From NCBI RefSeq assembly GCF_907164915.1, contig NW_025919514.1:62001-126000 (forward strand): a DNA stretch of 64,000 nt. The letters are read 5' to 3'. This DNA is from Impatiens glandulifera. Its lineage: Eukaryota > Streptophyta > Magnoliopsida > Ericales > Balsaminaceae. The notes under the pieces are model-generated. The model did no database searches and was not told where the DNA came from. It saw only the letters and a list, made by a program, of their open reading frames with translations. Positions 1 to 59,651 of this stretch are shown here, piece after piece. A program made the translations under genes and the position numbers. Numbering within the stretch: position 1 is the first letter of the stretch; each line of letters begins with the position of its first letter.

Positions 1-563
1 CTCTTCTATGCCCTTTGAAGATTCTGAGAGGTAATTTGTGTCAGCAATGCACGACATTGATGACGCCTCTTTATTATGTTTGATATAACTAGGAATAAAA
101 ATGAAACAAAGCCTACATGCATTCATTAACCTTTGATATCACACTTACATCATATCAGATTAGACCTTTCAATGTGATTTTAGCTGAAATACAAAGTTTT
201 TTCAATTTCTTAGTGTTAAGATTAGATTCTATGTGGATAAATAAAACTTGTAAGTTATTAACTCTTTATTTGTACTAATTTATTAGTATAATTGTTACCA
301 ATTTAGAGTGAAAAAAATTAGCAATGAGCAAAGAGCTCAAGGGAAAGGGAAAATGACCAAAGGAACCAATCTTGCAATGAAATCAAATAAAATGGGCAAC
401 TTTGTTTGCTTCTCTTCCAACCCATTGTGGTTTGCAAGTAAGGCTTCTTTGGATGTTGTCGCTGACACACAAAAAATGCACATTATCAGTAAACTATCAC
501 AACCGCGTATAGGGAAACTAACAAGGAAAATGAACAATGAATAATACCAACGCCAGACATCTT
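1..563. other. AT-rich flank, no gene recognised
   Basis: This stretch lies downstream of the sulfate-transporter stop codon. The open frames here (for example 308-544 plus) are short, have no recognisable domain and partly overlap the antisense of the transporter's last exon region. I see no RNA gene and no transposon end. It may include the 3' UTR of the transporter remnant, but I cannot place a poly(A) site with confidence. Confidence 0.5.
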
Positions 564-1528
564 TCATGGTCCTGCAGGGGGAGAACACCTGCGAACAGCA
601 TCTGCAACAGTGAGAAACACGTTCTCCACCCCAATCAACTCTACAAAATTAGACAAATGCAGCTTCTCTGTCACAACCGGTCCAGGATTTGCTACAACAA
701 GCTGTTTTTTTGTTTCAACCCAACACAAACAAACAAACAAAAAATCAATCAATCATAAGTGTAGCCTTTCGTTACAATGATTTTATTGTTATTCAACCTA
801 GAGCTTATTTGATATTATAGGGTTATTTGGAAATAATCTTGGTTTTAGAAAGAAAAAAATAAATTGTTTGATGTAAAAACTGGGTTTTTTAAGGGTAAAA
901 TGTCTTTACAAGAAAAGGGTAATTTGGTTGATGATTTAAAAGATGAAGGGATTGATGATTGAATAAAGGGTTAGTTTTGGATTCATCAAACAAAGGACCT
1001 AATTACCTTGATTTCCTTTTTATGCAGAGACTGATGCAACGCTTCCAACCCGTGAATTCCACTAGTATCTAGGTCGGTAACAGCTACAACAAAACAAAAC
1101 AAAACAAACATCAATTCCCGAAACAACAAATGTTTTCTTAAGGGTATAACGCAAAAAACAGCAGCAGCTCTTATGCGACATCTCAGATGATCACATATTG
1201 AATTCTCTGGTCATTATCTTTAATCGGTTCTTCTTCTTCAGTAAGCCACCCCAAAGTCGTAGACAAAATTATTAATTCCCCAATGTTTATTTTCTGAAAC
1301 TAGAAAAAACAAATCAAACATTACTACCCAATTATACCTCTCTCGGATATAGTTATCATTTGAAAAATAGATCCCGGAATCAACGCAAGCAATCAACAGC
1401 CCCGGAATCCTAGATGCATCTGGATACTGCAATATATTTCTGTATACCGTAGTTCTAGGGATATTCCCTAGCAAAGCAATCCGAGGCCTAGTCACTTGTA
1501 AAAGAATTTTCGCAAACGATATGCATAC
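564..1528 (-). pseudogene. 3' end of a sulfate transporter (SULTR group 3-like), decayed
   Basis: SLC26/SULTR proteins are plasma- or plastid-membrane sulfate/H+ symporters with a C-terminal STAS domain. Only the STAS part is present. Exons read on the minus strand: 1528-1338 (residues ISFAKILLQVTRPR, then LGNIPRTTVYRNILQYPDA and SGIYFSNDNYIRER), about 1258-1175 (WLTEEEEPIKDND), 1083-1007 (AVTDLDTSGIHGLEALHQSL) and 701-564 (VVANPGPVVTEKLHLSNF, then ELIG and FLTVADAV, ending PPAGP and TGA). GT or AG borders are visible at 1337, 1084, 1006 and 702. The second exon has an apparent extra T that puts a stop just after VII and lacks a clean acceptor, so I call it a pseudogene. All transmembrane exons are absent; their place upstream is taken by UPF2 exons on the same strand. 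Confidence 0.82.
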
Positions 1529-1631
1529 CTGAAGATAGATTTTTCTACATGTTCAAAATTATGCTTCAAAATGCTAAAGATATGAGTAATGATACTCATT
1601 TTGCAGGTTAGAGAAATTACAAAATGACTAC

Positions 1632-4600
1632 CTGATGTAAAGGAGGGCGGACTTTAGAAACCCTTGCTGATCGTTCAGGTGGTTTGCAGAGATAATAAAC
1701 ATTTTTTAAAAGAGTGCTGTGATGAGGATCCAGATTCTTGACATTTTTCAACCGCATCAAAATTTCCAACATATTGGCCATTCGCACAGAAGTTTCAGGA
1801 GATCGATAGAGAAATTGTCTGCAGGTCTCAAGGAGATTACATGCAACATCTATGTTATGATGCGAAAAATCATCCAAACAAGTCTGTAGAGGGAATATTA
1901 CGCTGAATATGAGAAAAAGGATAAGATGAACAAGTACTTTATTGCATTAAAATGAACTTTTATGTAACAGAATTATCAGGAAACATGATAAATGTAGGAA
2001 AAGTAATGAAAGCTACAGTTCCAAGTTAAAATAAAGATGAGACCATGTACATTTCTCACTTACCTTCAAACAGCCGAACACTAATCCAGGTGAAGCAATT
2101 TTGAATTTGCAGAGCTCCCCAATAAAGAGAATATTACGTATTTTTGTTTCAATATTCATTTGATCCTGGCAAAATAAAATTTTAATTTCAGTGTAACTAA
2201 AATTTTCAAAGAAGAAAGCAACAAACTACTAAACAAACCTTCTTATTTATCAGAGAGTTGAACTCTTCCTCCAGCAGTTGTAAGAGCATGAAAGAAACAT
2301 CTTTTATACAAGTGGATAGTGTGGCAACCATACGAGAGCAGTACGGAAGCAGTTCAAGAGATGTCCTGGGAACATTGAACAAGGCTCTCACAAGCTTGAT
2401 TTTGAATTCAAATAACAAAATTCTACCTGGAAAATAGAAAATGCATATTTACCAAAATCTTCACGAACAAACTAGATGTATTCACAGTAGAAAAATTATA
2501 TAAAGAGAAAAGACAAGGCTGGAACAGATGGTTATAGTTAATTGATCAATTAGATCTCGGCTCACACATCCTGGCAGCCTCTGCAACATACCATCCAAGT
2601 TTGTCCCCTCTAGTCCTTTAAGTTTCTCCTTTTCATTTTCTATTTTTCTTTCAGCATCTTTGTCTTTTCCTTTCTCTTTTTCAGGATCCTTACACTTTTC
2701 CTTTTCTTTTGCATCTTTGTCTTTGGCTTTCTCATTGTTCCCCTCCTGAACAGCTGCAGCTTCACGGGAAGCCTCTACAGGTTCTTGGCTAACGCTCTAA
2801 CTTTGGTCTGGCTCATGTGAATCCTATATGTATACATATTAAAGTTAAGAAAAATAAAATCAATACTTACTCGTATATTACACTATACATATTTTTCATT
2901 ATTTATAGACGTTAGGTGGAAGCAACAAGTGGAACAGAAAAAAAAAAAAAGAAAAAAAAAGCTGATTGGAATGAAATATCAAATCTTCCTTGACTAGGTT
3001 CAACATCATAAAATCTCATTCAAACAACCAAACCTTGCAGATATCTTATTTGTATGGCCAGGTAGTGACAATTTTAACATCTCACATACATTTCAAACTG
3101 CTAAGTAGATTGCAAAAAGGATTTGCAAGCTGTGTTCAGAGAACAATTATGACAAGGTTTAAATGGATGCCACTAATTTATCATTCGCATCACTGTAATA
3201 TGTGTCAAAACATTAGGATAGAATGTTTAAAATGGTATTGCAGGTACACTCCATGTATTACACACAAAGAAATATTATGATACAAGTATATATGACATAG
3301 TTGTTGGAGCTTAAATAAAATAGAAATGAGTTCCTTACAGATGGTTTCTCTTGTGACTTCGGAGAATGGTTATTAGCCTTGGGTTCTGCTTCTCCCAGAA
3401 GCACAGCTGGAACAAAAGCTCTGATATAGAATAAAATAAGTGCTTAATGACTCAATATTGTAGCTTAAAAACTCATTCGAAGAAAGCAACAGGAGAAAAT
3501 CATCATGCAACTCCTTGTTCAAGAAAAAGGCAATAAACATTAGGCATAACAATCTGATGGCACAAACCTAAGGTCAGGCAAGCTTTCATAAAATGCTTTG
3601 GTGTCTTCATCAGAATTTGGTAATGATGATTCCCCCACAGTAGTAACCCTGGTTGTGTGGCCATCCTCTGGCATTACTGTAGGTTCCATGTCAAGAGCTT
3701 CTGCCAATCTGAAACAAACAATTTTTTTGGGTGGGGTAGAGAGTTAATAGTGTGAAAGCACGAGTAGTATACTTCTTTTAGATTGAAGAATCTCGTGAAT
3801 CCATAAAGCACAGTTGGAAAGAATACAAGGGGAAGAACAAATGGATAACCAACAGGAAAGTGAAAGTGCACAGCCTGATTGGACTACTATTAAAAGAAGG
3901 AATGTTGACATTAGTTAGGAAACCCAATCAATGATAAAACAAATAAAGTAGCTTACAATATCGATTCTTCCAGAGAAATTTCTACTTGCTGAGTATGAAT
4001 AAATCTCATTTAAACACTTGTTTGACAAATATAAATTGGGATTTAATCTAAAATCCTTTTACAAATAAATATTATTTTAATTAATTTTTAAAAAAAAGGA
4101 TGAAGCCTTAATTAATAAATTTTTAAGTACTTTATTAATGAATGTACAGTCCAAAACCATATTTTATTTTTAAATATTATATTTCTTTTTATTTAATAAT
4201 TTATAAATATTTTATCATATATAAAGTAATCCAAAACAAACAACTAAGAACAAAGTTAGTAACAACTTCCAGAACAAACTTCTTAATAGAAAATAATTGT
4301 TTCTAACGAAAATGAAGGCTTCAAAAGTCACAATAGTGGCAGGACAAAATATTTGTCAGGAGACAAAAAGAAAGGTAAGAAGAGGAATACTGGGTCAAAA
4401 CAGAAAGTCGTAATCAGTTTAAAAGAGGAATACTTAATCAAATGTTGCACATATTCAGATTAAGAGGTCAATCATAACCTGGTTCCAAGGGATTCACCAT
4501 GGACTATAAAATTAAATTGAAGTGTTGTGCATATGAAGAAAAGCATAACAACTAGTAGCCAATATCTTTTAGAAGTGGAACGCAATTTAGTAACTTACGC

Positions 4601-9584: not shown

Positions 9585-10367
9585 TATTCTTTGCCCACGT
9601 TGTATCTAGAGTACAACACAATATTAGAGGATATTTGGCGCACTACCTGTCTTGTACGACCACGATCCCAATGCTCAGAGTCTGATGTACTGTCGTACTA
9701 TTGGTGACCGTTCAACGGACACATGCCACATGTTCTAGAAGAAGATTCGACTGTTGGAGCACTTCAAGTATAAATTACTACTCAAGGACAACGGACGAAC
9801 TGCCTCTCGAAGTGATTTTTGCCCTTAATATACCATTGCTTAAGCTCCATCTCTGATTATCCAATATCTCTCAAGCTCAAGCATAAACTACTCACTATCT
9901 CACTGTGTGATTACTCTATAATTAGTATACTATCTTTTTTGTGTGAAATCTCAATGTTGTAAGTTGAATAGAGGGTGTTTTGTTCAACAGAGAGTTAACT
10001 ATAAGTTTATAAGTTTTGTTAAGTCCTGTAGTTTCTAACTGGATTTGTGTAGTGTGTTCTATACAAATCAAAGCCTTTTAGTGAATATCCTTCCGGTTGT
10101 GGAAGAAGGGGTGACGTAGGAGTTTTATCTCCGAACATCCATAAAACTCCCTATGTTCTTTACTTTCTGCCATTTACATTCATCTGTCTAAAGCTTCAAA
10201 TCCAACAAACGGCATCGCACTTGAATTGAACTTGTTTAAGAGTCTGTAAAGATTTGCGAAGAATATAAACAGATCTTAATCCCTCACATGATTAATATCG
10301 AATTGAAGTGTGTAAACTATTAACAATAGCCAGTCCATAGTCTCTATTGTCGACATTGATCATAACA
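9585..10367 (+). repeat. Truncated 5' LTR of the plus-strand copia
   Basis: The segment matches 35780-36283 of the 3' LTR, including CCCACGTTGTATCT near 9596, the TATA box TATAAAT at 9769-9775 and the end GATCATAACA. The U3 part carrying the hairpin array has been lost at 9585. Positions 9957-10290 are present here, but in the 3' LTR they are replaced by a short block of hairpin units (36138-36210). Confidence 0.83.
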
Positions 10368-10635: not shown

Positions 10636-12329
10636 TGATAGGATCGACGTAATCAATAGAGACGGTGGTCTGGCTATTGATAACAGCTTCGGATAAACGA
10701 TTTGATAGAAATCCTATTAGGGATTTAAATCATTTTCTATTCTTCACAAACCCTTGCAAACTCTTGAACGATTCAAGTGCGAAAACGTTTGCTCAAATTT
10801 GAAGCTAAGAACCAAAGAATGAGAAGATGGTAAAGAAAAATAACACAATAGTTTGTTTATGAATGTTCGGAGCAAACTCTCCTACGTCACCCCTTCTTCT
10901 AACCACCGGAAGTATTCACTATACATTTCTTTAGAATCAAATACAATTGAAGGCTAGCTCAGTGTTGAACAGAACAGACTTTGTTCAACTTACAGTATAT
11001 TGAAGAATATCACTCAGCTAGACAATACTTTAATTCTAACTCTCTCTTGATAAACATACAGTAAAGCAAGAAAGCAGCCTTTTAGAATATCAACTTGTAT
11101 GTTCGCGTATGATTCTCTGAGTATCGATGGATCGATTATTTATCTGTTGTCCTTGAGATTCTTTAAATAGAGAGCAGGTCCCAATGGTCGAATCTTCCGT
11201 AATGACACGTGGCAAACTTCCATTGGAACGCCTCCATAGTACACAACAGACTCTGAGCACCAGGATCGTGGTCGTACCAATCTGGTAGTGCGTCAAATAT
11301 TCTTCTAGGATTTCTTGCAAGAAACAAATAGTGGGAAGAATATTTGCTTACATGGCATTAGTTAACTGGTTATAACTGGCTGTCTTACTGATCTTCACTG
11401 GAAATTGGAGCATGAGTTGTATACAACTAGTTGATCGTGGATAGACGGATGCTAGTCTCAAGCAACTGCTTAAGCATGGCATTAGACATTTTTCACTTAG
11501 ACTGACCAGTCTAATGAAATTAGATGCCCACGTCTAATAGTAGGATCCATTAGACCACCTAGTCTAATGGGATTAGACGACACGTCTCATTACGGTTCCC
11601 TTCAGACTATTCTAAAGGAATTAGACTACACGTCTAACTATCATCTGTTAGACTACACGTCTAATTACACTTCCCTTTAGACTAATCTGAAGGAGTTAGA
11701 CTACACGTCTAACTCTAATCTGTTAGACTACACGTCTAACTCTAATCTGTTAGACTACACGTCTAACTACGTCTGTTAGACTGCACGTCTAACTACGTCT
11801 GTTAGACTGTACGTCTAACTACGTCGGTTAGACTGCATGTCTAACTATGTCTGTTAGACTGCATGTCTAACTATGTCTGTTAGACTGTACGTCTAACTAC
11901 GTCTTCTAGACTGCAAGTCTAACTACTCCTGTTAGACTGCAAGTCTAACTACTCCTGTTAGACTGCACGTCTAACTACGCCTGTTAGACTGCACGTCTAA
12001 CTACGCCTGTTAGACTGCACGTCTAACTACGCCTGTTAGACTGCACGTCTAACTACGCCTGTTAGACTGCACGTCTAACTACGCCTGTTAGACTGCACGT
12101 CTAACTACGCCAGTTAGACTGCACGTCTAACTACGCCTGTTAGACTGCACGTCTAACTGAATGCATCTAACAGCCAATTAGTCTAATGAACCTCATTCAG
12201 ACTTAGATGTTTTCGATACACCTGCACCAAAAACGATTAGATGGGTTAGATTAAGTTTGAACCCAATATATCATCAAAATTCATTAGTCAAAATACTTTG
12301 ACGCTTAGTCAAAATAATTTGACCCAACA
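10636..12329 (-). repeat. 3' LTR of minus-strand copia, copy A (1694 bp)
   Basis: On the minus strand it begins TGTTGGGTCAAA (12329) and ends ATCCTATCA (10636). The TATA-like TATTTAAAG lies at 11169-11161, so the hairpin array (11620-12158) is in U3. It is 283 bp longer than the 5' LTR, almost exactly eleven 26-bp array units. Confidence 0.93.
11620..12158 (-). repeat. Hairpin array in LTR U3, about 20 units
   Basis: Tandem units of mostly 26 bp read GTTAGACTGCACGTCTAAC plus ACTACGCCT-type spacers. In each unit GTTAGAC and GTCTAAC are exact inverted repeats around a 5-base loop. The last units (from about 11957) are nearly identical, while the first units have longer and variable spacers. 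Confidence 0.95.
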
Positions 12330-12330
12330 A

Positions 12331-12344
12331 TTTCCCCCTTTTTG
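12331..12344 (-). promoter_or_regulatory. Polypurine tract of minus-strand copia, copy A
   Basis: Read on the minus strand, CAAAAAGGGGGAAA lies directly before the 3' LTR start TGTTGGGTC. This is the expected place and composition of a plus-strand primer. Confidence 0.88.
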
Positions 12345-12516
12345 ATGATGATGTTAAAACTTTGCATAGATAACAAAATGCACATCCATCATATAAAAGA
12401 AATAGTTAAACTTGTTCACCAATCTTATAGAAACACTTTTCAAAAACCAATATTCAGAAACCAAATTTAATGAACCAAGTTCATAAACTAACGGAGGATA
12501 GTTTAAGGAAAAGAGA

Positions 12517-15500
12517 TTATTGTTCTTCCCTTTTTATGAGTGGGTCGATTGGGAAGCGAGATCCTTCATAGCTGAGTTCTTCACAAGTTAGAAGGTTTTG
12601 AAAAGGAGGAAGAGAACTTCCACCACGATCACTTCCACCACTTCGGCCACCACGATCGCCACTACGACCTCCGCCTCTTTTCATTGGCCTGTTGTTATCA
12701 TCACCGGTTGGCTTTCGCTTTGATCTGGCCTGTCGAAACACCACCACCTCTTCTATTGCTATTGTCCTTGCCTTGAGTAATAACATATTTCTCTTTTTCG
12801 GCAGCAGCCTTAGCATCTTCTTCAGCCTGAACCTTCCTTGCAAAGGAATCAACATGTTCTAATCTCTCACCATCAGCTCTTCTCATGTTACCTTGAATCT
12901 CAACCATCTGATCTCGAATCAAGCTAATTTCATCCATAACCTCATTATGAAGTTCAACGTTAAATTCCCTATCACAATCATTCAACTCAGTCTGCCGTTT
13001 GAAGAAGTTCTTTTCAAATTTGGTGTATGACTTGTTGGCGATATGAACCTCGTACGTGTTCTTCTTTAGTGTCTGCTTTATCTCATTGTGGGTTTTAAAA
13101 AGATCAGCAAATTCTTTCTTGCTTACTTTTTGAGTCTTCATAATCTTCACCATATTGGATTCCATTACAGTCATATTCTTTTGAAGAGTTGCCATCAATG
13201 CTGTCATGGACTTCATAAGCTTTGTACCATCAACAGAAGATCCTTCATTAGATGAAATCTCTTGAGAATCTACTGGAGCGGTCTGAATGTGACTGATGTG
13301 GGTGTGCACTTGCATGGACTGCTTGGGTCCATCCTTCTCTGAATCACTTTCAGATTTTTCTTCTTCTTTACCTTCCAAAGTTTTTTCACATATCTTGTGA
13401 ACCTTATCGGACACATCTCCTGAATGATTGTGAAGGTTGATAATATCGTCATGAATATTTGCAGTAGTGATCAAAGGAGTTGGTCGAGGAGAATCTTCAG
13501 AACTTTTGGAAGATAAATCACTGTTGTCTTGTTCCCCTTAGCGGAAGAACTCTTCTCAAATTCCTTTTCTTTTGAGGGTTCCCCCTTAGAGTGATGTTCA
13601 TCAGGCTAAAAAACATCGACCTCCTTTTCTGGAGAAGCCTCTGCCTCGATAATAGGGGACTCCAAAATTTCTTCTTCTCAAGTAACAAGAGCTTGAACAG
13701 GCACTTAAACAACTTCTTCTTCTTCGATAGTTGGTTTGGTTTGAATGGGTTCCACAATTTGCTCAATTCTGGGTTGAGCCATTAGACGTTTTTCCTCTGC
13801 TGAAAAACTTCCCAGTTCTATAAGAAGAGCAACAATTTGCTCATCTTTATCAACATCACGATCATCGGAAAGATCCATAAGTTCATCTTCATCTGAGGAA
13901 CTTCCAAATGGGACTATCCCCTGAGCAATTTGCTCCATGAACGTACCTGGTAACTATAGAAATGTAATCTTCCATAATCTCATCCAATCTTTTCAAAGCT
14001 TTCTCCTCTGCTTTAACACTCTTCTCAAGAGGGTTGAGATTGGCTCTTCTGGCTTGAAGAATTGGAAAGAGAGCTTTTCCTCTCAAATTTGCTTTAACTG
14101 GCTCTTTTCTCTTAAGAGCTTCATAAACTTTCGATGTTTTAGCCCATTTTAGGACTCTATTTTCATTGCTGACTAGCTTCAACCATTGATTGCTTATGTC
14201 TTTACCCTTGATGACTTCATCATACTTAATAGACATTTTGTTCAAGACCCAAGTATAAAGATCTCGATCTTTTCAGTAGCAATTGACTTGGCCTGATCCA
14301 TCATAAGGTTGACAATGCAGGTTGCTTCAGAAACATCCTCATTAGGATAGGATGTGACATCTTTCTCTTTTCCAATAACCTGAACAGGCTTTGGAGCGGG
14401 CCTTGGTTCCCCAATTGTGATTCCAGTAGTCTGTCTGGTGGAACGCATAATTTCGTGAGTAAACAGGGGTTTAGAAAAGAGTCCTAGCAAGGGTTCTACC
14501 GGAACAAGCTTTTTAGTCACTAAGGACTCTGTTGGGACAGGATTGGGAACATGTGTCTCTACGACTTGCATAGAGAGGACTTTTTCAATTGCATCACTAA
14601 CAGCAAGGGTAATAACTGCACCTTACTCTAGTTCAAGAGACACTGTAGCATTAGCAGCTACAAGATCGGGTTGACGAACTGAAGATAGAGCCCTGTCAAG
14701 ATTTTCAGAATTTTGACGAACTGGCTCAACAGTTGGCCCGACAACAGATTCCACAACAGGAATAAAAACAGACTTATCTTGTTCCAACTCAGGAACATTG
14801 AATTTAGGCACTTCGACCTGGGATTGAGAAGGGGTTACCTTTGATGAAGCTTTTACAGACTTAGACGCCCCGGGCGCCTTTGATTTATCTCCTCTTGAAA
14901 CCGAGGACTTGGAGGGCCTTCTTAACTGACTCACAACTAGAGACATGGGAATGGCAGCAAGTTCTGACTAGACATTGCCTAACTCTAGAATCGACTATTC
15001 CAGAGTCCTTCTTCGAGGAACTCTTAAGACTATTATAACTAGCCTTTGATTCATTGACAGTCTTTGATCTTTTGGCTCATGTCGACAAGATAGAAGTTGT
15101 CGAGTGTTTAGAATGAGTAACAAACGTTCCTCCTATCTATTGGCTTGATGCTCCCGAGATCGATTCTTTATTGTTCTTCATTCGGACGAGGGTGTTAGCA
15201 ACTATGAAGACATTGTACACCTGGGTGGAGTTGATCGGCTCAGAATCCCCCATGGGGACCCCTAAATATTCTAGCAAACGACTCAATTAAGCAGCAAAGT
15301 TTATACTTTCTTTGTTCTCTTGGTTGATCGCAAAGCATAGATTCTGGTACAAAGTTGAGGCCCAGTTGACCTGAATCTCTTTGGTAATAATCAACATATA
15401 GTCAAAACGGTCTTGACTATACAGATGGAAAGAACCCGCCTTCCCTTGAAGCGATTTAGCCATCACGTCATTCAACAAAATAAACTGGGGTTTGAGAGCC

Positions 15501-15907
15501 TTCTTACTCCCATTAAGTCGAATCTTCGAGCTGTCGGATGAGAAAACCGTCTTCATTTCTTCCGTGACTTCCGATGGAAGATTCAAGTTGAAAGTGTGCC
15601 CCTCCGACGGAAGTTCAAAGAACTCCGCATAGGATGCTTCGTTGAAAGAGACTTCGGTATCATTCTCCGTTTCCGTAATGGAATTGCCGACCATTATCGC
15701 CGATTTGAAGAACTCCCTGACTTTTTTTTCGTGGAAAATGAACGGCCCACCAAGGTATTTTCTAAGACCGGAATATTCAATGGATCGGAACATATCGACC
15801 GCCTCTTGTTGATCGAACGTGTAGATGGAGGGAAAATCGACGTGCAGAGTACAATGACCGAGTGTGATTCTCTTGTTTCCCATCTTTGAAAGAATACGAA
15901 CAGACAC
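12517..15907 (-). pseudogene. ORF3 (extra ORF) of minus-strand copia, copy A
   Basis: A long reading frame of roughly 1100 codons lies between the pol position and the 3' LTR, broken here by several lesions. The N-terminal domain (15907-15287) includes GLRKYLGGPFIFHEKKVREF and FELPSEG, and LKPQFILLNDVMAKSL. A Ser/Pro-rich linker follows (14946-14570), then a block with ISNQWLKLVSNENRVLKWAK (14245-13889), acidic stretches, a coiled coil (about 13270-12860; MTALMATLQKNMTVMESN, IKQTLKKN) and an RGG-rich tail (KRGGGRSGDRGGRSGGSDRG) ending LIKREEQ and a stop at 12517. Private lesions are a CAA-to-TAA stop at 15287, a one-base loss near 14253 and a one-base gain near 13912; stops near 13706, 13690 and 13605 are shared with the other copy. 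I see no signal peptide or membrane segment, so it is not a typical env. Function unknown. Confidence 0.75.
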
Positions 15908-16685
15908 TCAAAGAACAAGGGTTTCTTAGAACGAAGATCAAAGAAATCTAGGGTTCTTAAGAGACTTTGAGAGAGAAGAAACTTTTTCAATCTCATGCAG
16001 AATGTCCTTATATGGACTATCAGGAGTCGCATAGAATAACCGTCATATTTCCTAGGGGTAGGGCCCATCAATTAATATTAAACGTCCTTTTCAAAGAGTC
16101 ATCATTTTATTGAGGGTATATTAGTCATTCTATTTTAACTTAAAAGACACGTGTCTTCATGTTATTCGGTGATGACTGTGTTTATGTTTGAGCGGGAATA
16201 TTAGATATCACATCACGTGGGACAACTGTCCTTGATCGGTCTAATACACACGTAGTTAGACGTTTTTCTTACTTCTACAACTATGAAATCTAAACGTCTA
16301 TTAGACGCATGGGTCTATTAGACACAAGCATCTAATCACGTGTCTTATAAACGTCTAACGTCTATTAGACGTCGACGTCTAATTACGCATGAACAACACG
16401 TATTAGACATGTGTTTAGTTAGACATGAGCATCCAATTTCTCTTGTCTTAAATTTTCCTTCTCATTTTGTGCATGTACAAAATGAACAAATGTTTTGAGG
16501 ACCTTAAGACCAAAAATATTTTTAAAACATAAAAGACTTAGTCCTCTAGAATGGAAAAGACCATTGTTGATCTCCTAAAATGTATAGTCAAAAGAGTATG
16601 CTCCATACTTCCTTCCTGCAGCTCTCCTGTATCACCTACACAAGAAAATATTTAGAAACTTTGGTACCCACATTCAATTGGGTCC
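15908..16685 (-). other. Spacer between gag remnant and ORF3, with dispersed TAGAC motifs
   Basis: There is no coding sequence here. Positions 16230-16440 contain many TTAGACG/CGTCTAA motifs in both orientations, related to the LTR array but not regularly spaced. Protease, integrase and RT coding sequence would be expected here in a full copia and is absent. Positions 16080-16150 hold a short AT-rich stretch. The leader of ORF3 is probably in 15908-16060. Confidence 0.65.
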
Positions 16686-18470
16686 TCAATCAATCAGTCC
16701 CTTAGAAATCCATATTTGAGATATTCTGATGGATTTCCCATTTTGTGTTGTGATTAATGCGTATGATTTTGACTTAGCAGACGCCTTCCTGCTAGCCACT
16801 GATTCCTTAGCTTTTGAAGATGATTTTCTTTTAAAACTCGTTGACTTTGAGTCAGGTTTTAAATTTCTAGACTTGCTGGCTGCTTCTAACTTATTTTTCA
16901 GCCAACTAACAGTCGGCGGGACATAAGTTATTTTATTCTTCAAAGCTACCTCTTCATGAATGAGATCAGATTCAATATTAGTTAAACTCCCTTTAATAAA
17001 GCTTATTGACTTAAGCTTGTTAGTTACTGAGTTTGACTTTTTGCAGGACTAGTTTGGGTCATTGCCATCAAATCCCAAACCGAATCTAGATCCAGCAGGT
17101 TTTAACAGACTAATCTGATATTTGACAGCTTCTCCAGACCTTGTCCAAGCACTAACAACATAGTTTAACCTTTTGTTTTCAAAAGAGAGTGTTAGGATCT
17201 GTTCTTTGAGCATCTCATTCTCGGATGAGATCTCTACTACTTTCTTTTCAAAAACATTTGATTCTTGATTTTGAGATAAAATAGGTTGAGACACTTTGGG
17301 TGACGATTTTGTTTCATTTAGGGATTCTGCTAGCTTTCTGTACTCTATGACCATGTCATCTAGTGCAGGTACCAGTTGTTCCCTTGAAAACTTTTCAGAA
17401 GAGAAGTCAAATACCTCAGTTTCCTGAGTCTCTTCTTCTTCTTCTCTTGCCATGAAGCAGGCAACCTCGTCTTCATCACTATCACTAGATGAGAAGTAAG
17501 AATCACGGTGGTTTCGTCTATCCTTCCCGTCTCCTGCCATAAGAGCCTTCAGCTCCTTTTGATTGTTATTTTTCTTCTCTTCACGCTTAGGCTTCTGACA
17601 TTCCGATTGGTAATGACCTAAAATGCCACAGTTATAACACTTAACATTAGCTTTGTATTTCTTATTATCATTAGAATTTGAAGAGCTTGAGTTAGAATTG
17701 CTCTTCTTCATGAAGTCGCCAATCTTCTTCACGAAGAGAGACATAGCATCGCTTCTTAGTTGCTAAGCCACTGTCTTCACATCAGAAGCAACTGTTGGCT
17801 CTTCAGCAGTCACCAACGCTTTGACAATGATAATGGATGTGTATTGATCTTCTTCAATCCTAGAGTTCAACTCGAACTCGTATGCCTTGAGATTAGCGAA
17901 CAAATCGAAGAGCGAAATATTGTTGAGGTCTTTAGATTCCCTCATGGTCATCGTTTTTATATCTCATTCCCTTGGAAGAGCATGCATGACCTTAATAGTA
18001 AGCTCCCTGTTGCTATAGGTCTTGCCAAGAATAGATAGAGTGGAGACAATTTGACTGAACCTTGTGTCAAACTCGTTCATCGTTTCTCCGGGACACATTT
18101 TGAAACTGTTGAGTGGCAACCATGATCTTGTTTTCCTTGGTTTTCTCATTACCCTCACATAGTTGAGTGAGTCTGTCCTAGATCTCCTAAGCAGTATCAC
18201 ACTCAATAATGTAGTTGAACATACTATCATCAAAAGATCTGTACAGAACGTCTAATGCCATGTTGTTGAGGTTGTTCTTCCTCTTGTCTTCACTGGTCCA
18301 TTCTGATTTCTCCTTATCGATCTTGATGGGACCATCTGTGATAACGCTCCACATGTCGTCATGAAGAGAAGTGAGATGAGCATAAACTCTCTTCTTCCAC
18401 ACGATGTAATTTTCTCTAGAGAATGTGGAGATTGCGATAGCATTAACATCTTTGGTTATGGTCGTTATTC
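16686..18470 (-). pseudogene. Gag of minus-strand copia, copy A
   Basis: Ty1/copia Gag packages element RNA. Blocks on the minus strand: 18470-18187 (AISTFSRENYIVWKKRVYAH, then YRSFDDSMFNYIIECDTA and a stop), 18190-17964 (MNEFDTRFSQIVSTLSILGK), 17951-17763 (LFDLFANLKAYEFELNSR), 17744-17049 with a zinc knuckle CYNCGILGHYQSEC (CX2CX4HX4C) and a Ser/Asp-Glu-rich segment, and 16943-16686 (YVPPTVSWLKNKLEAA, Lys/Ser-rich). The N-terminal part resembles the UBN2-type gag domain. Disruptions include stops after the first block and a TGG-to-TGA change near 17963 that the other copy lacks. The last block normally lies near the gag-pol border, after which pol is missing. Confidence 0.83.
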
Positions 18471-18498
18471 TTAGTAAAAACTTGAGAATAGAAATAGA

Positions 18499-18510
18499 GC
18501 TCTGATACCA
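18499..18510 (-). promoter_or_regulatory. tRNA-iMet primer-binding site, copy A minus-strand copia
   Basis: On the minus strand the bases read TGGTATCAGAGC, a perfect plant initiator-Met PBS, two bases after the LTR end. On the plus strand it appears as GCTCTGATACCA. Confidence 0.93.
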
Positions 18511-18512
18511 AT

Positions 18513-19923
18513 TGATAGGATCGACGTAATCAATAGAGATAGGGGTCTGACTATTGATAACGGCTTCGGATAAACGATTTGATAAAAATCCTGTTAGGGA
18601 TTTAAATCAGTTTCTATTTTTCATAAACCCTTACAAACTCTTGAACGATTCAGGTGCGAAAACATTTGCTCAGGTTTGAAGCTAAGAACCAAAGAATGAG
18701 AAGATGATAGAAAGAAAAATAACACAGCAGTTTGTTTATGGATGTTCGGAGCAAACTCTCCTACGTCACACCTTCTTCCAACCACCGGAAAGATTGATTA
18801 TACGTTTCTTTAGAATCAAATACAATTGAAGGCTAGCTCACTATTGAACAGAACAGACTCTGTTCAACTTATAGTATATTGAAGAATATCACTCAGCTAG
18901 ACAATACTTTCATTCTAACTCTCTCTTGATAAACACACAGTAAAGCAAGAAAGCAGGTCTTTAGAATATCAGCTTGTATGTTCGCGTATGATTCTCTGAG
19001 TATCGATGGATCGATTATTCATCTGTTGTCCTTGAGATTCTTTAAATAGAGAGCATGTCCCAACGGTCGAATCTTCCATAATAACACGTGGCAAACTTTC
19101 ATTGGAACGCCTCCATAGTACACAATAGACTTTGAGCACCAGGATCGTGGCCATACCAATCTGGTAGTGCACCAAATATTCTTCGAGGATATTCCTGCAA
19201 GAAACAAGTAGTGGGAAGAATATTTGCTTACGTGGCATTAGTTAATTGGTTGTAATTGGCTGTCGTACTAATCTTCACTGGAAAGTGGAGTAGGAGTAGC
19301 ATACAGCTAGTTGATCATGGGTAGACGGATGTTAGTCTCAAGCAACTGCTTAAGCATGACATTAGACGTTTTTCACTTAGACTGACCAGTCTAATGAAAT
19401 TAGACGCCCACGTCTAATAGCAGGATCCATTAGACCACCTGGTCTAATGGGATTAGACGACACGTCTAATTACGGTTCCCTTCAGACTAATCTGAATGAG
19501 TTAGACTGCACATTTAACTCTCATATGTTAGATTGCACGTCTAACTATGCTTCCCTTTAGACTAATTTGAAGGAGTTAGACTGCACGTCTAACTCTCATC
19601 TGTTAGACTGCACGTCTAACTACACCTGTTAGACTGCACGTCTAACTACTCCTGTTAGACTGCACGTCTAACTACTCCCGTTATACTGCACGTCTAACTA
19701 CTCCCGTTAGACTGCACGTCTAACTACGCCTGTTAGACTGCACGTCTAAATGAATGCATCTAATGGCCAACCAGTCTAATGAACCTCATTCAGACTTAGA
19801 TGTTTTCGATACATATGCACCCAAAACGATTAGACGACTTAGATTAAGTTTTAACCCAACATATCATCAAAATTCCATTAGTCAAAATATTTTGACGCTT
19901 AGTCAAAATAATTTGACCCAACA
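18513..19923 (-). repeat. 5' LTR of minus-strand copia, copy A (1411 bp)
   Basis: It has the same ends as the other LTR (TGTTGGGTC at 19923, ATCCTATCA at 18513). TATTTAAAG at 19048-19040 is the likely TATA box, which makes about 875 bp of U3. Over the first 150 bases compared by eye the two LTRs differ at about a dozen positions, so the insertion is not recent. Confidence 0.92.
19502..19749 (-). repeat. Hairpin array in LTR U3, about 9 units
   Basis: These are the same 26-bp TTAGAC(TGCAC)GTCTAA units as in the 3' LTR but only about nine of them. One unit carries TTATACT instead of TTAGACT and the first has a damaged right arm (CATTTAAC). Confidence 0.93.
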
Positions 19924-26321: not shown

Positions 26322-27850
26322 GGGCGATTGTTTTCTTCACTTCCATTCATTGGAGAAAACACCTGCTCTGATCTGCTCTTGCAGTCGGGCAGACGATTGT
26401 TTTCTTCACTTCCATTCATTGGAGAAAATTCCTGCTCCGGTCTGCTCTTGTAGTGGGGGAGGCGATTATTTTCTTCACTTCCATTCATTAGAGAAACCCC
26501 TACTCCGATCTGCTCTTGTAGTCGGGGAGGCGATTGTTTTCTTCATTTCCATTCATTGGAGAAAATCCCTGCTCCGATCTGCTATTGGAGTCGGGGAGAC
26601 AATTGTTTTCTTCACTTCCATTCATTAGAGAAAACCTCTACTCCGATCTGCTCTTCCAGTCGAGGAGGCGATTGTTTTCTTCAATTCTATTCATTGGAGA
26701 AAACCCCTACTCCGATCTACTCTTGCAGTCGGGGAGGCGATTGTTTTCTTTATTTTCATTCATTGGAGAAAACCCCTGCTCCAATCTGCTCTTGCAGTCG
26801 GGGAGGGGATTGTTTTCTTCACTTACATTCATTGGAGAAAACCCATGCTTCGATCTGCTCTTGTAGTCGGGGAGGCGATTGTTTTTTTCATTTCCATTCA
26901 TTGGAGAAAACCCCTGTTCCGATCTCATTTTGCAGTCGGGGAGGCAATTATTTTCTTCATTTCCATTCATTGGAGAAAACCCCTGCTCAGATCTGTTCTT
27001 GTAGTCGGGGAGGCGATTGTTTTCTTTTCTCCATTCATTGGAGAAAACCTCTACTCCGATCTGTTCTTGCAGTCGGGGAGGCGATTGTTTTCTTCATCTC
27101 CATTCATTAGAGAAGACCCCTGCTCCGGCCTGCTCTTCCAATCGGGGAAGCGATTGTTTTATCCACTTCCATCCATTCGAGAAGACCCTTGGTCAGATCT
27201 ACTCTTTCAGTCAGGGAGGCAATTGTTTTCTTCATTTCCATTTATTGGAGAAAACCCCTGCTCCGATTTGCTCTTGCAGTCGGGGAGGCGATTGTTTTTT
27301 ACATTTCCAATCCTTGGAGAAAACCCCTACTAAGATCTGCCCTTGTAGTCGGGGTGATGATTATTTTCTTCATTTCCTTCATTGAAGAAAACCCCTACTC
27401 CAATATGCACTTGCAGTCGGGGAGACAATTGTTTTCTTCATTTCCATTCATTGGAGAAAACCCCTGCTCTGATCTGCCCTCGCAGTCGGGGAGGCGATTG
27501 GTTTCTTCACTTCCATCAATTGGAGAAAACCCTTGTTGCGGTCTGCTCTTGCAGTCGGGGAGACAATTGTTTTCTTTACTTCTATCCATTGGAGAAAACC
27601 CATGCTCCGATATGCTCTTGCAGTTGGGGAGGCGATTGTTTTCTTCACTTCCATCCATTGGAGAAACCCTACTCCGATCTCCCCTTGTAGTCGGGGAGGC
27701 AATTGTTTTCTTCACTTACATCCATTGGAGAAACCCCTACTCCGATCTGCTCTTACAGTCGGGGAGACGATTGTTTTCTTCATCTTCATTCGTTGTAGTA
27801 AATCCTGCTTCGATTTTCTCTTATAGTCGGGAGGCGATTATTTTCTATAT
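26322..27850 (+). repeat. 69-bp minisatellite in the gypsy 3' UTR, about 22 units
   Basis: The unit contains GGCGATTGTTTTCTTCA, CATTCATTGGAGAAAACCCC, CTCCGATCTGCTC and GCAGTCGGGGA. Because 69 is divisible by three, reading frames stay open through the array in all three forward frames and in part on the reverse strand, giving frames of up to 240 codons. These reflect the periodicity, not a gene. Tandem repeats in the 3' UTR are a known habit of Tat/Ogre elements. Confidence 0.93.
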
Positions 27851-34885: not shown

Positions 34886-34899
34886 AAAAATGGGAAAAT
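34886..34899 (+). promoter_or_regulatory. Polypurine tract of the plus-strand copia
   Basis: AAAAATGGGAAAAT directly precedes the 3' LTR start TGTTGAGTC at 34900. Confidence 0.7.
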
Positions 34900-36283
34900 T
34901 GTTGAGTCAAGTCAAATTGATTAAAAATAAACTTAGGAAATAAGCTTATTCAAAACAACTCTATTTAATTGTGGGTTAACAGTATTTTGATGATGTGCGA
35001 ATTAATCAAAGTAAAACTTAGTTATGCACATGCAAAGCTGAAGAGCTTAATTTAATATCGCAAACGAATAAGACTAATCTGTGAAACTATTTTGTGTAGG
35101 CACAAATCTAAAGGATTATGCTACTTTAGACGTGGTCTGAAACAGGCGTTTATAAACATCTTGCTACTTCAGATGGAGTCTGGTGTACGCGAGTAGACGT
35201 CGTCTAACTCTTTTAGATGTGGTCTAAAGGAAAGCGCAGTTAGACACGGTCTAACTCCTTTAGACGTGGTCTAAAGGAAAGCGCAGTTAGACGCAGTTTA
35301 ACTCCTTTAGACGTGGTCTAAAGGAAAGCGTAATTAGACGTCGTCTAACTCATTCTTAGACGCGGTCTAAAGGAAAGCGTAGTTAGACGCCATCTAACTC
35401 CTTCTTAGACGCGGTCTAAAGAAGAAGAATTGTTAGACGCTGTCTAACTCCTTCTTAGACGTGGTCTAAAGAAGAAGCGTAGATAGACGCCATCTAACTC
35501 CTTCTTAGACACCGTCTAAAGAAAAAACGTAGTTAGACGTAGTATAACTCCTTCTTAGACGTGGTCTAAGGAGTGCACGTAGTTAGACGCCGTATAATTC
35601 CTTCTTAGACGCGGTCTAAAGGAGAACGTCTGATGCCTTACTCTAGTAGCCGTCTAAAGGAAGCATCCGTCTAACTACGTACTCAGCCCATCTACAATTA
35701 CTGTTTTCAACAGTCTGACAAGCCAGTTGATCCGAACAAATGAAAGACTGCTACATACACGTTTATCATTCAAATTGCCCACGTTGTATCTCTCTAGTAC
35801 AACACAATATCAGAGGATATTTGGCGCACTACATGTCTTGTACAACCACGATCCTAATGCAGAGTTTGTTGTACTCTCGTACTATTGGCAGCCGTCCAAC
35901 GGACACATGTCACGTGTTCTAGAAGAAGATTCGACCATTGGTGTACTTCAAGTATAAATTGCTACTCAAGGACAATAGACGAACTGCCTCTCGAAGTGAT
36001 TTTTGCCCTTGATATACTATTGCTTAAGATCCATCTCTGATTATCCAATCTCTCTCAAGCCCAAGCACAAACTACTCACTGTCTCACTGTGTGATTACTC
36101 TATAATTAGTATATTGTCTTTTCTATGTGAAATCTCAGTGTTGTAACTCCTTTAGACGTGGTCTAAAGGAAAGCGCAGTTAGAGGCGGTCTAAAGGAAAA
36201 CACAGTTAGAATATCGAATTGAAGTGTGTAAGCTATTAACAATAGCTAGACCCCAGTCTCTATTATCAACACTGATCCTAACA
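34900..36283 (+). repeat. 3' LTR of the plus-strand copia (1384 bp)
   Basis: It starts TGTTGAGTCAAG and ends TGATCCTAACA. U3 holds a hairpin array (35170-35650); the TATA box TATAAAT is at 35953-35959. Positions 36138-36210 carry extra hairpin units in place of about 330 bp present in the 5' LTR. It is a diverged relative of the minus-strand LTR, with similar order of blocks around the TATA box. Confidence 0.85.
35170..35650 (+). repeat. Hairpin array in U3 of the plus-strand copia LTR
   Basis: Irregular tandem units of about 45-50 bp, each with two imperfect palindromes such as TTAGACGTGGTCTAA and GTTAGACGCGGTCTAAC, separated by CTCCTT and GGAAAGCG blocks. The stems are related to the minus-strand family but the unit is different. 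Confidence 0.85.
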
Positions 36284-36493
36284 CTTATTCACTTTGAATT
36301 CAAATTGATTAGTCATCGCATGTCTATACAACCTCAATTGAAGTTCTTTTTTGTCCTAAAAAAACGTACACACTTCCAATCCGTTTTCAATGGTTAATTG
36401 AGCAGGTGTTTCAACCTCGATTGGATCATATGAATTAAGCTTTCTTGGTATTTTGCTTTCTTGAGTTGGATGTGAAGGTAGTGACTTGTCTAC

Positions 36494-50280: not shown

Positions 50281-51821
50281 TGATAGGATCAGCGTAATCA
50301 ATAGAGACGGGGGTCTGGCTATTGATAACGGCTTCGGATAAACGATTTGATAGAAATCCTATTAGGGATTTAAATCATTTTCTATTCTTCACAAACCTTT
50401 GCAAACTCTTGAACGATTCAAGTGCGAAAACGTTTGCTCAAGTTTGAAGCTAAGAACCAAAGAATGAGAAGATGACAGAAAGAAAAATAACACAATAGTT
50501 TGTTTATGAATGTTCGGAGCAAACTCTCCTACATCACCACTTCTTCTAACCACCGGAAGTATTCACTATACGTTTCTTTAAAATCAAATACAATTGAAGG
50601 CTAGCTCACTGTTGAACAGAACAAACTTTGTTCAACTTACAGTATATTGAAGAATATCACTCAACTAGACAATAATTTGATTCTAACTCTCTCTTGATAA
50701 ACACACAATAAAGCAAGAAAGCAACCTTTTAGAATATCAACTTGTATGTTCGCGTATGATTCTCTGAGTATCGATGGATCGATTATTCATCCGTTGTCCT
50801 TGAGATTCTTTAAATAGAGAGCAGGTCCCAACGGTCGAATCTTCCATAATGACACGTGGTAAACTTCCATTGAAACGCCTCCATAGTACACAACAGACTA
50901 TGCGCACCAGGATCGTGGTCGTACCAATCTGGTAGTGCGTCAAATATTCTTCTAGGATATTCTTGCAAGAAACAAATAGTAGGAGGAATATTTGCTTAAA
51001 TGGCATTAGTTAATTGGTTATAACTAGATGTCGTACTGATCTTCATTGGAAATTAGAGCAGGAGTAGTATACAACTAGTTGATCATGGGTAGACGGATGC
51101 TAGTCTCAAGCAACTGCTTAAGCATGGCATTTGACATTTTTCACTTAGACTGACCAGTCTAAATAAATTAGATGCCCACGTCTAATAGTAGGATCCATTA
51201 GACCACCTAGTCTAATGGGATTAGACGACACGTCTAATTACGGTTCCCTTCAGACTATTCTGAAGGAATTAGACTGCACGTCTAACTCTCATCTGTTAGA
51301 CTACACGTCTAACTACACTTCCCTTCAGACTAATCTGAAGGAATTAGACTACATGTCTAACTCTAATCTGTTAGACTACACGTCTAACTCTAATCAGTTA
51401 GAATACACGTCTAACTACGTCTGTTAGACTGCACGTCTAACTACGTCGGTTAGACTGCACGTCTAACTACGTCTGTTAGACTGTACGTCTAACTACGTTT
51501 GCTAAACTGCAAGTCTAACTACGCATGTTAGACTGCACGTCTAACTACGCCTGTTAGACTGCACGTCTAACTACGCCTGTTAGACTGCACGTCTAACTAC
51601 GCCTGTTAGACTGCACGTCTAACTACGCCTGTTAGACTGCACGTCTAACTGAATGCATCTAACAGCCAATTAGTCTAATGAACCTCATTCAGACTTAGAT
51701 GTTTTCGATACACCTGCACCAAAAACGATTAGACGGCTTAGATTAAGTTTTAACCCAATATATCATCAAAATTCAATAGTCAAAATACTTTGACGCTTAG
51801 TCAAAATAATTTGACCCAACA
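50281..51821 (-). repeat. 3' LTR, copy B (1541 bp)
   Basis: It has about 14 hairpin units at 51269-51650. TATTTAAAG is at 50816-50808. It is 153 bp shorter than the copy-A 3' LTR, about six units. Confidence 0.92.
51269..51650 (-). repeat. Hairpin array, copy B 3' LTR, about 14 units
   Basis: 26-bp TTAGAC...GTCTAA units. The frame at 51215-51427 on plus is a by-product of the array. Confidence 0.92.
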
Positions 51822-52018
51822 ATTTCCCCCTTTTTGATGATGATATTAAAATTTTGCATAGATAACAAAATGCACATCCATCATATAAAAGAAATAGTTA
51901 AACTTGTTCACCAATCTTATAGAAACACTTTTCAAAAACCAATATTCAGAAACCAAATTTAATGAACCAAGTTCATAAACTAACAGAGGATAGTTTAAGG
52001 AAAAGAGATTATTGTTCT

Positions 52019-55401: not shown

Positions 55402-56340
55402 TCAAAGAACAAGGGTTTCTTAGAACGAAGATCAAAGAAATCTAGGGTTCTTAAGAGATTTTGAGAGAGAAGAAACTTTTTCAATCTCATGCAGAATGTC
55501 CTTATATGGACTATCAGGAGTCGCATAGGATAACCGTCATATTTCCTAGGGGTAGGGCCCATCAATTAATATTAGACGTCCTTTTCAAAGAGTCATCATT
55601 TTATTTAGGGTATATTAGTCATTCTATTTTAACTTGAAAGACACGTGTCTTCATGTTATTCGGAGATGACTGTGTTTATGTTTGAGCGGGAAAATTAGAT
55701 ATCACATCACGTGGGACAGTTGTCCTTGATCGGTCTAATACACACGTAGTTAGACGTTTTTCTTACTCCTACAACTATGAAATCTAAGCGTTTGTTAGAC
55801 GCATGGGTCTATTAGACACAAGCGTCTAATCACGTGTCTTATAAACGTCTAACGTCTATTAGACGTCGACGTCTAATTACGCATGAACAACACGTATTAG
55901 ACATGTGTTTGGTTAGACATGAGCATCCAATTTCTCTTGTCTTAAAAACGTCTAACGTCTATTAGACGTATACGTCTAACCGCACAGGTTTTTAACCAAG
56001 ACACACAGACTTAGATGCATAGAGTGTGAGTAAAAATACGTCTAAGTACATGCTTTTTCTCTTAGACGATCTCGTCTAATAGATCCATTACGGCCTTTTG
56101 TCCGAGTGTATATTTATTTCTAAAATAAATTTTTCTTCTCATTTTGTGCATGTACAAAATGAACAAATGTTTTGAGGTCCTTAAGACCAAAAATATTTTT
56201 AAGACATAAAAGACTTAGTCCTCTGGATTGGGAAAGACCATTGTTGATCTCCTAAAATGTATACTCAAAAGAGTATGCTCCATACTTCCTTCCTGCAGCT
56301 CTCCTGTATCACCTACACAAGAAAATATTTAGAAACTTTG
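55402..56340 (-). other. Spacer with dispersed TAGAC motifs, copy B
   Basis: Non-coding. TAGACG/CGTCTA motifs occur at 55735-56090. The block 55940-56120 includes TTAGACGTATACGTCTAA and has no counterpart in copy A, which joins CTTGTCTTAAA directly to TTTTCCTTCTCATTTTGTG. Confidence 0.65.
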
Positions 56341-56399
56341 GTACCCACATTCAATTGGGTCCTCGATCAATCAGTCCCTTAGGAATCCATATTTGAGAT

Positions 56400-58150: not shown

Positions 58151-58174
58151 TAAAAACTTGAGAATAGAAATAGA

Positions 58175-58186
58175 GCTCTAATACCA
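58175..58186 (-). promoter_or_regulatory. Primer-binding site, copy B minus-strand copia
   Basis: Read on minus: TGGTATTAGAGC, one substitution from copy A. Confidence 0.88.
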
Positions 58187-58188: not shown

Positions 58189-59651
58189 TGATAGGATCGA
58201 CGTAATCAATAGAGACAGGGGTCTGACTATTGATAACGGCTTCGGATAAACGATTTGATAGAAATCCTGTTAGAGATTTAAATCAGTTTCTATTCTTCAT
58301 AAACCCTTACAAACTCTTGAACGATACAAGTGCGGAAACGTTTGCTCAGGTTTGAAGCTAAGAACCAAAGAATGAGAAGATGATAGAAAGAAAAATAACA
58401 CAGCAATTTGTTTATGGATGTTCGGAGCAAACTCTCCTACGTCACACCTTCTTCCAACCAGCGGAAAGATTCACTATACGTTTTTTTAGAATCAAATACA
58501 GTTGAAGGCTAGCTCACTGTTGAACAGAACAGACTCTGTTCAGCTTACAGTATATTGAAGAATATCACTCAGCTAGACAATACTTTCATTCTAACTCCCT
58601 CTTGATAAACACACAGTAAAGCAAGAAAGCAGCTCTTTAGAATATCAGCTTGTATGTTCGCGTATGATTCTTTGAGTATCGATGGATCGATTATTCATCT
58701 GTTGTCCTTGAGATTCTTTAAATAGAGGGCAGGTCCCAACGATCGAATCTTCCATAATAACACCTGGCAAACTTCCATTGGAACGCCTCTATAGTACACA
58801 ATAGACTTTGAGCACCAGGATCGTGGCCATACCAATCTGGTAGTGCACCAAATATTCTTCTAAGATATTCCTGCAAGAAACAAGTAGTGGGAAGAATATT
58901 TGCTTACGTGGCATTAGTTAATTGGTTGTAATTGGCTGTCGTACTAATCTTCACTGGAAAGTGGAGTAGGAGTAGCATACAACTAGTTGATCATGGGTAG
59001 ACAGATGTTAGTCTCAAGCACCTGCTTAAGCATGACATTAGACGTTTTTCACTTAGACTGACCAGTCTAATGAAATTAGACGCCCACGTCTAATAGCAGG
59101 ATCCATTAGACCACCTGGTCTAATGGGATTAGACGACACATCTAATTAGGGTTCCCTTCAAACTAATCTGAATGAGTTAGACTGCACATTTAACTCTCAT
59201 ATGTTAGATTACACGTCTAACTACGTTTCCCTTCAGACTAATCTGAAGGAGTTAGACTGCACGTCTAACTCTCATCTGTTAAACTGCACGTCTAACTACG
59301 CATGTTAGACTGCACGTCTAACTACGCCTGTTAGACTGCACGTCTAACTACTCCTGTTATACTACACGTCTAACTACGCCTGTTTGACTACACGTCTAAC
59401 TACGCATGTTAGACTGCACGTCTAACTACGCCTGTTAGACTGCACGTCTAACTACGCCTATTAGACTGCACGTCTAAATGAATGCATCTAATGGCCAAAC
59501 AGTCTAATGAACCTTATTCAGACTTAGATGTTTTCGATACACCTGCACCCAAAACGATTAGACGACTTAGATTAAGTTTTAACCCAACATATCATCAAAA
59601 TTCCATTAGTCAAAATATTTTGACGCTTAGTCAAAATAATTTGACCCAATA
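58189..59651 (-). repeat. 5' LTR, copy B (1463 bp)
   Basis: About 11 hairpin units at 59177-59477. TATTTAAAG is at 58724-58716. It is 52 bp (two units) longer than the copy-A 5' LTR. The terminal TG reads TA because of one substitution (59651 region). Confidence 0.92.
59177..59477 (-). repeat. Hairpin array, copy B 5' LTR, about 11 units
   Basis: 26-bp units; three of them carry a substitution in one arm (TTAAACT, TTATACT, TTTGACT). Confidence 0.92.

Follow-up and report, generated by a model that had tools for sequence, protein, structure and literature searches.

What is the palindromic repeat that occupies the upper part of the LTRs of a duplicated copia element in Impatiens glandulifera, how does it come to vary in length, and what might it do for the element? 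The window, i.e., the whole 64,000-nucleotide stretch of DNA analysed, is C729:62001-126000 within the 654 Mb genome. The element copies are described first, followed by the build of the array, its changes in number, and its relation to known LTR repeats.

The Two Element Copies and Their LTRs

The window carries two copies of the element, with the following LTRs and gag region:

10636..12329, minus strand: LTR A, 3′ LTR of element copy 1, 1694 bp
18513..19923, minus strand: LTR B, 5′ LTR of element copy 1, 1411 bp
50281..51821, minus strand: LTR C, 3′ LTR of element copy 2, 1541 bp
58189..59651, minus strand: LTR D, 5′ LTR of element copy 2, 1463 bp
17049..18512, minus strand: gag region in several frames, with a zinc knuckle above the cut-off (E 4.8e-6) and Retrotran_gag_2 below the cut-off

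These lengths are the ones that a sequence-only reading of the window had given. The sense strand of all four LTRs is the minus strand. LTRs A, B, and C have TG...CA ends, and LTR D starts with TA instead. The 5 bp target duplication ATCTG is common to both element copies, indicating that the element was duplicated together with its surroundings. In the downstream half of the LTRs, the divergence within an element copy (K = 0.084 for A-B and 0.098 for C-D) is larger than that between copies (K = 0.048 for A-C and 0.038 for B-D). Thus, the insertion is older than the duplication. A large segmental duplication relates window positions 3175-24306 to 39702-64000, its five longest pieces being 95.8-97.3% identical. 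On the unplaced contigs C729 and C740, matches are spaced about 33-47 kb apart, giving at least six copies of one retrotransposon insertion.

The element interiors (12330-18512 and 51822-58188) contain gag and env-position ORFs, and pol is apparently absent. A domain scan of six window ORFs found no pol domain. Of the three env-position ORFs scanned, two had no Pfam match and one had a match below the cut-off; env identity here means position only. Relatives bearing the same palindromes have copia domains: a reverse transcriptase domain (RVT_2) in L013 and L014, and an integrase core, above the cut-off, in L013. The L013 stretch 92-3448, which includes integrase and reverse transcriptase, has no counterpart in the window element (internal positions 1879-2061), and pol thus seems to be missing from the latter.

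A tandem array of 69-bp period and about 22 copies lies at window positions 26323-27846, for which a 344-bp period is also a possible reading. By eye, it is unrelated to the LTR palindromes.

Build of the Array

Each of the four LTRs carries an array of TTAGAC...GTCTAA palindromes, and further copies lie inside the element, as follows:

11478..12157, minus strand: array of LTR A; 15 units of 26 bp, 3 of 27 bp, and 2 of 48 bp, plus a promoter-side palindrome block
19358..19750, minus strand: array of LTR B; 5 units of 26 bp, 2 of 27 bp, and 2 of 48 bp, plus the matching block
51126..51649, minus strand: array of LTR C; 9 units of 26 bp, 3 of 27 bp, and 2 of 48 bp, plus the matching block
59034..59478, minus strand: array of LTR D; 7 units of 26 bp, 2 of 27 bp, and 2 of 48 bp, plus the matching block
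11161..11169, minus strand: TATA-like box TATTTAAAG of LTR A, downstream of the array
16365..16382, minus strand: internal perfect palindrome TTAGACGTC-GACGTCTAA of copy 1, between the gag and env-position ORFs
55812..56079, minus strand: four internal TTAGAC...GTCTAA palindromes of copy 2, between the gag and env-position ORFs

Splitting the arrays into units bears out the counts of the sequence-only reading, i.e., 20 for A, 9 for B, 14 for C, and 11 for D, in segments of 680, 393, 524, and 445 bp. That reading also placed the array upstream of the box, as found here; its span of 11620..12158 for LTR A has to be replaced by about 11478-12157. The proposed 26-bp unit holds for the majority, to which 27- and 48-bp units must be added. 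Likewise, many units are the perfect inverted repeats with a 5-base loop that had been described, but a few palindrome arms contain mismatches, and the promoter-side block consists of further palindromes toward the TATA box with mostly 6-base loops. Each 48-bp unit has a second palindrome inside it, the most regular form of which is CCTTCAGA-TTAG-TCTGAAGG.

The length differences between the arrays are exact: A-B is 10x26+27, A-C is 6x26, B-D is 2x26, and C-D is 2x26+27. Only the 26- and 27-bp units vary among the four window arrays, the two 48-bp units and a 113-bp promoter-adjacent block being constant. Perfect palindromes with 6-bp arms and loops of 3-7 have 59 start positions in 700 bp, against a mean of 1.7 and a maximum of 8 in 200 Markov reshuffles; the array is thus not a product of chance.

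The CpG observed/expected ratio is 0.96-1.13 in the arrays versus 0.72-0.90 outside, at an array G+C of only 0.42-0.43. Among the 12 commonest loops listed, the loop begins with GTG in 147 of 183 five-base-loop units, and an ACGT core is formed at the junction of arm and loop. ACGT cores are associated with bZIP-type factors. The internal palindromes, one in copy 1 and four in copy 2, are found at 2.1-2.4 kb of the internal regions and are extended by bases that differ yet stay complementary.

Unit Number and LTR Length

The 3′ part of LTR A, 545 bp long, was used to search for the family; 40 of 6,977 candidate places were scored, and 41 matches were listed. The sample consists of the best-scoring 16 of these 41, i.e., the four window LTRs and 12 others. 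All 16 have the array, and in 13 of them the LTR start carries a TTTGAC...GTCAAA motif that is separate from the array. LTR length follows palindrome number closely (r = 0.983, slope 27.1 bp per unit) in the 15 LTRs with both ends, L024 being left out because no LTR start was found. In these 15 LTRs, the length ranges from 1411 to 2006 bp and the palindrome count, one mismatch per arm being allowed, from 13 to 35; the palindrome counts include the TTTGAC...GTCAAA motif and the promoter-side block and so exceed the unit counts of 20, 9, 14, and 11. Eight of the 15 (A-D and L020-L023) are copies of one insertion and are not independent, and the seven others span 15-35 palindromes and 1501-2006 bp.

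The rest of the LTR hardly varies. The part beyond the array measures 840-845 bp in the 15 LTRs. Measured from the array-end anchor, the region of the TATA-like box starts after 300-303 bp in 15 of the 16 LTRs and after 293 bp in L024. A promoter-side palindrome precedes the anchor by 93 bp in 13 LTRs and by 92, 91, and 55 bp in the remaining three. The sequence-only reading held that unit number sets LTR length, and had named array absence from most family members, or length unrelated to unit number in other copies, as grounds for giving this up; among the best-scoring 16 of 41 listed matches, neither is seen. For LTR annotation, it follows that LTR length in this family is a gauge of array size and not of completeness.

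Changes in the Array after Insertion

The 20-base downstream flank is common to six 3′ LTRs (A, C, and L020-L023), apart from one base that differs in L020, L022, and L023. The six are for this reason regarded as copies of a single insertion, with array segments of 731, 575, 601, 575, 470, and 521 bp. Of the 15 pairs, 14 differ, by near-whole multiples of 26, at K = 0.025-0.073, the differences among all six ranging from 0 to 10 units. Thus, the array changes in place: the unit changes among these segmental copies are explicable without transposition. The 5′ LTR copies B, D, and L024 have array segments of 444, 496, and 444 bp, where L024 is assigned as a 5′ copy by its similarity and by its distance of 7.9 kb to L021, the same as that of B to A.

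Identical 26-mers, up to six of them, are found at the TATA-distal end of the array. In LTR A, the first seven 26-mers differ by at most one change, for which P = 0.0025 if they have been apart since the insertion and P = 0.068 if since the duplication, assuming neutral, independent sites. Separation since the insertion is unlikely, then, and separation since the duplication less so. These comparisons agree with the sequence-only reading that the array has changed in whole units since the duplication, and its suggestion of a slippage hotspot fits as well, if unequal exchange is allowed beside slippage.

Might the length differences among the duplicates stem mainly from assembly collapse or expansion? 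The copies sit on unplaced contigs, C729 and C740, within a large repeat, where assembly error could alter array lengths. Against this, the variant units are not identical between copies, and LTRs on chromosome-size contigs (L025, L026, L027, L029, L030, and L031) vary widely too, with segments of 521-1027 bp. We consider an assembly origin very improbable.

Relation to the Sirevirus RM

Several published hallmarks point to a Sirevirus-type copia element. The junctions are as follows:

18499..18512, minus strand: ATTGG and primer-binding site TATCAGAGC of copy 1, the Sirevirus 5′ junction
12332..12339, minus strand: polypurine tract AGGGGGAA, followed by AT/TG, of copy 1, next to LTR A

The two junctions read CA/ATTGGTATCAGAGC and AGGGGGAA-AT/TG. 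At the 5′ junction, CA/ATTGG plus TATCAGAGC is exact in copy 1, and copy 2 reads TATTAGAGC. The Sirevirus polypurine tract is AGGGGGAG followed by AT/TG, with several copies in the linker, and a final A, as in AGGGGGAA, is published for ToRTL1 and Tnd-1 (PMC2829016). Polypurine octamers number 2 and 3 in the two internal regions, the extra ones 1.2 kb away; Sireviruses have an average of 4, within 0.5 kb (PMC2829016). By eye, an inverted repeat surrounds the junction of polypurine tract and 3′ LTR, with ATCATCAAAA directly before the tract and TTTTGATGAT within LTR A. Also by eye, LTR C has a C-rich signal, CCAGACCCCCGTCTC, about 23 bp from its end, one C of which is replaced in LTR A; the Sirevirus signal is about 21 bp before the LTR end (PMC2829016). 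The box cTATTTAAAg, one base off the published consensus, comes about 300 bp after the end of the array and past the LTR middle, at about 1160 of the 1694 bp of LTR A. The Sirevirus TATA box is described as conserved, near the LTR middle, and shortly after the cluster of the repeated motif (RM) (PMC2829016).

The RM was described in 13 Sireviruses by Bousios et al. in 2010 as palindromic and grouped in the upper part of the LTR, from 200-400 bp and upstream of the TATA box, with 8 to 32 copies per element, a cluster that forms a CpG island, and extra copies before env in the env-bearing members (PMC2829016). A CGG-CCG core is present in 12 of the 13, the exception being Tnd-1, and no common binding factor could be named (PMC2829016). 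The Impatiens array, too, consists of palindromes, has at least 8 copies, and sits before the TATA box in the upper LTR; its internal TTAGAC palindromes, lying between gag and ORFs that are env by position only, recall the extra copies. Yet the array begins about 170 bp into the LTR, is built of 26-bp head-to-tail monomers with up to 35 palindromes in one LTR at a G+C of 42-43%, and lacks the CGG-CCG core, which counts against RM identity. The RM of Usier reads GTCGGAC-GTCCGAC, where the Impatiens family has GTTAGAC-GTCTAAC, a change of CG to TA in each arm, loop aside (PMC2829016). The array is probably a lineage-specific form of the Sirevirus RM in which TAG...CTA has taken the place of the CGG...CCG core.

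Two other systems bear comparison. According to a 2016 study, maize Sirevirus palindromes are variable, fast-evolving clusters in the LTR regulatory region, and small RNAs map to them (cited in PMC5311732 and PMC10760457). The Impatiens clusters have the same location but a different sequence core, and small-RNA mapping is a maize result. The repeated U3 boxes BII of tobacco Tnt1 bind defence-induced factors and vary in number between copies (PMC3316501, PMC2923131); in the Impatiens array, the number is likewise copy-dependent and the sequence is another.

Tnt1 is not known to be a Sirevirus. The earlier reading did not mention the Sirevirus precedent. The idea that the array represents an object of a new kind was considered and rejected, as RM boxes are known from Sireviruses (PMC2829016). 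No earlier description of a TTAGAC-GTCTAA array in Impatiens was found in listings of the literature outside subscription journals.

The CGG-CCG Core in Relic Arrays

TTAGAC-N5-GTCTAA has 100,904 exact copies in the genome versus 55 for the reversed control, a lower bound since it covers loop 5 only, a loop range unlike that of the N0-8 counts that follow. Neither TCGGAC- nor TTGGAC-type palindromes proved abundant genome-wide: TCGGAC-N0-8-GTCCGA has 108 copies versus 135 in the control, and TTGGAC-N0-8-GTCCAA 305 versus 634. TCAGAC-N0-8-GTCTGA is strongly enriched (9,450 versus 237), mostly with a 2-base loop among the places listed.

Three relic arrays (L032, L033, and L034), picked from the TCGGAC-N0-8-GTCCGA list for clustering or a common loop, are compared here with a second, related LTR of the window, which has its putative ends at about 34898-36300:

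35189..35640, plus strand: array of the second, related LTR; 3-base-loop palindromes that alternate between two registers, a pair taking up about 50 bp

Part of the promoter-side half of this LTR recurs at 9591-9962 and 49231-49602, in both duplicated segments, at 89-90% identity.

The relic arrays contain CGG-CCG units and hybrids where the related LTRs bear TAG. In L032 and L034, TCGGAC-GAA-GTCCGA, with decayed forms, alternates with CTTC-TTAGAC-GTG..TA-GTCTAA-AGAAG at about 50-bp spacing. The left arm of the first register has CGG in 7 of 11 units in L032, 7 of 11 in L034, and 2 of 4 in L033; the second LTR of the window has TAG there, and CGG in 0 of 4. These counts cover units placeable by pattern expression only and exclude those that fit no arm pattern. 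Four hybrid units combine a CGG left arm with a TAA right arm, and L034 has one of the opposite make-up. In their sequence beyond the arrays, L032 and L034 agree at 88% over 193 bp before and at 86% over 69 bp after the array, the L034 sequence compared reaching only shortly past its array. L033 matches L032 at 86% over 88 bp before the array, its identity to L032 and L034 there being 75-86%, and it matches the window's second LTR at 77% over 308 bp after the array. The relic array L032 and the maize consensus CACCGGACNNNGTCCGGTG both have CGGAC-N3-GTCCG (PMC10760457).

The occurrence of CGG-CCG and hybrid units in relics where related LTRs bear TAG suggests that both arms were rewritten, i.e., that TTAGAC-GTCTAA replaced CGG-CCG in this register. 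The direction from CGG to TAG would follow from the published RMs and the three picked arrays, two of which are alike. Loops that start with GTG, typical of the neighbouring palindrome, are found in the 26-bp unit as well, which favours some conversion over point changes alone. It is conceivable, though we lean against it, that a whole Sirevirus clade in this genome rewrote both arms from CGG-CCG to TAG-CTA through hybrids, with dyad symmetry kept, and spread the new form to at least 100,000 sites. Such a rewrite could remove methylatable CpG from the arms, the CpG at the arm-loop junction staying. It could also reflect a change in which host factor drives the elements.

What the Array May Do

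Our proposal is that the array is probably a cis-regulatory repeat in the U3 of a Sirevirus-type copia element, RM-like in kind. A host factor that drives LTR transcription would recognise the units as repeated sites in double-stranded DNA, in line with the protein-binding guess of the sequence-only reading. The starting state would be an ancestral two-palindrome unit of about 50 bp, the CGG-CCG core of which was lost either by CG to TA changes in both arms or through conversion by the adjacent TTAGAC palindrome. Of the two palindromes, one would then have grown as a 26-bp monomer on the TATA-distal side, through slippage or unequal exchange, and this growth would set the LTR length. Small-RNA production, also among the guesses of that reading, may be a side effect, as argued for maize (PMC5311732, PMC10760457). 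The hexamer arms are identical across LTRs that are about 70-80% alike in their aligned 3′ parts, with loops of 3-6. A loop length of 3-6 is unusual for a rigid dimer site and counts against DNA sites. Within the family, the arms are conserved at 84-99% per base (beside chosen spacers) and the spacer at 53-100% (between exact arms); since conservation of the spacer comes close to that of the arms, only the between-family comparison argues for the arms.

Could the palindromes act as RNA instead? Being in U3, the array would be part of the 3′ end of the element transcript, where it would fold into hairpins that either serve the element or feed host small-RNA silencing, the latter having been proposed for maize Sireviruses (PMC5311732, PMC10760457), a precedent that speaks for the idea. 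The predicted fold is strong on both strands (z about -15, with 0 of 20 shuffles as good); such a fold is expected of any palindrome array, hence it is no independent evidence. The pairing counts, which are rough because the sequences are related, are divided. Pooled over loop classes, 107 of 201 distinct units are complementary at the first flank pair versus 86.8 in shuffles (1 of 1000 reaching this), and 228 distinct units have GU at this pair 26 times versus AC 8 times. The inner loop pair of the 6-base-loop units pairs in 23 of 35 versus 11.0 shuffled, the flank pair of the 4-base-loop units in 14 of 15 versus 8.7, and the internal palindromes, as described above, extend by complementary bases. 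In the 5-base-loop units, however, flank pairing equals that of the shuffles (72 of 140 versus 71.1) and is, on balance, unsupported. So is selection for core RNA pairing: in 299 distinct units, core wobbles are sense GU 43 times and antisense AC 45 times (p = 0.92), beside 49 other mismatches and 6 compensated pairs, and these 6 are of the TTTGAC...GTCAAA type, the motif outside the array. On balance, the sequence comparisons for selected RNA pairing are mixed and mostly negative, and an RNA role is unlikely, although less so than the other alternative, a passive minisatellite expanded by slippage with no function of its own. The whole-unit changes in place, the TATA-distal run of as many as six identical 26-mers, and the spacer conservation within the family are what a minisatellite would give. 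Yet the hexamer arms recur in LTRs only about 70-80% alike, with other loop lengths and spacings, and inside the element; the array keeps a steady position relative to the TATA-like box; and RM arrays are found in Sireviruses of distant plants (PMC2829016). We reckon a purely passive repeat to be improbable and prefer, over selected RNA pairing, a reading in which a host factor would bind the repeats as DNA.

For such DNA sites, the genome offers two kinds of material. The six segmental copies of one LTR, with their differing unit number, form a natural series for site dosage, and the related LTRs, in which one unit has CGG, hybrid, and TAG forms, bear on the role of the core.
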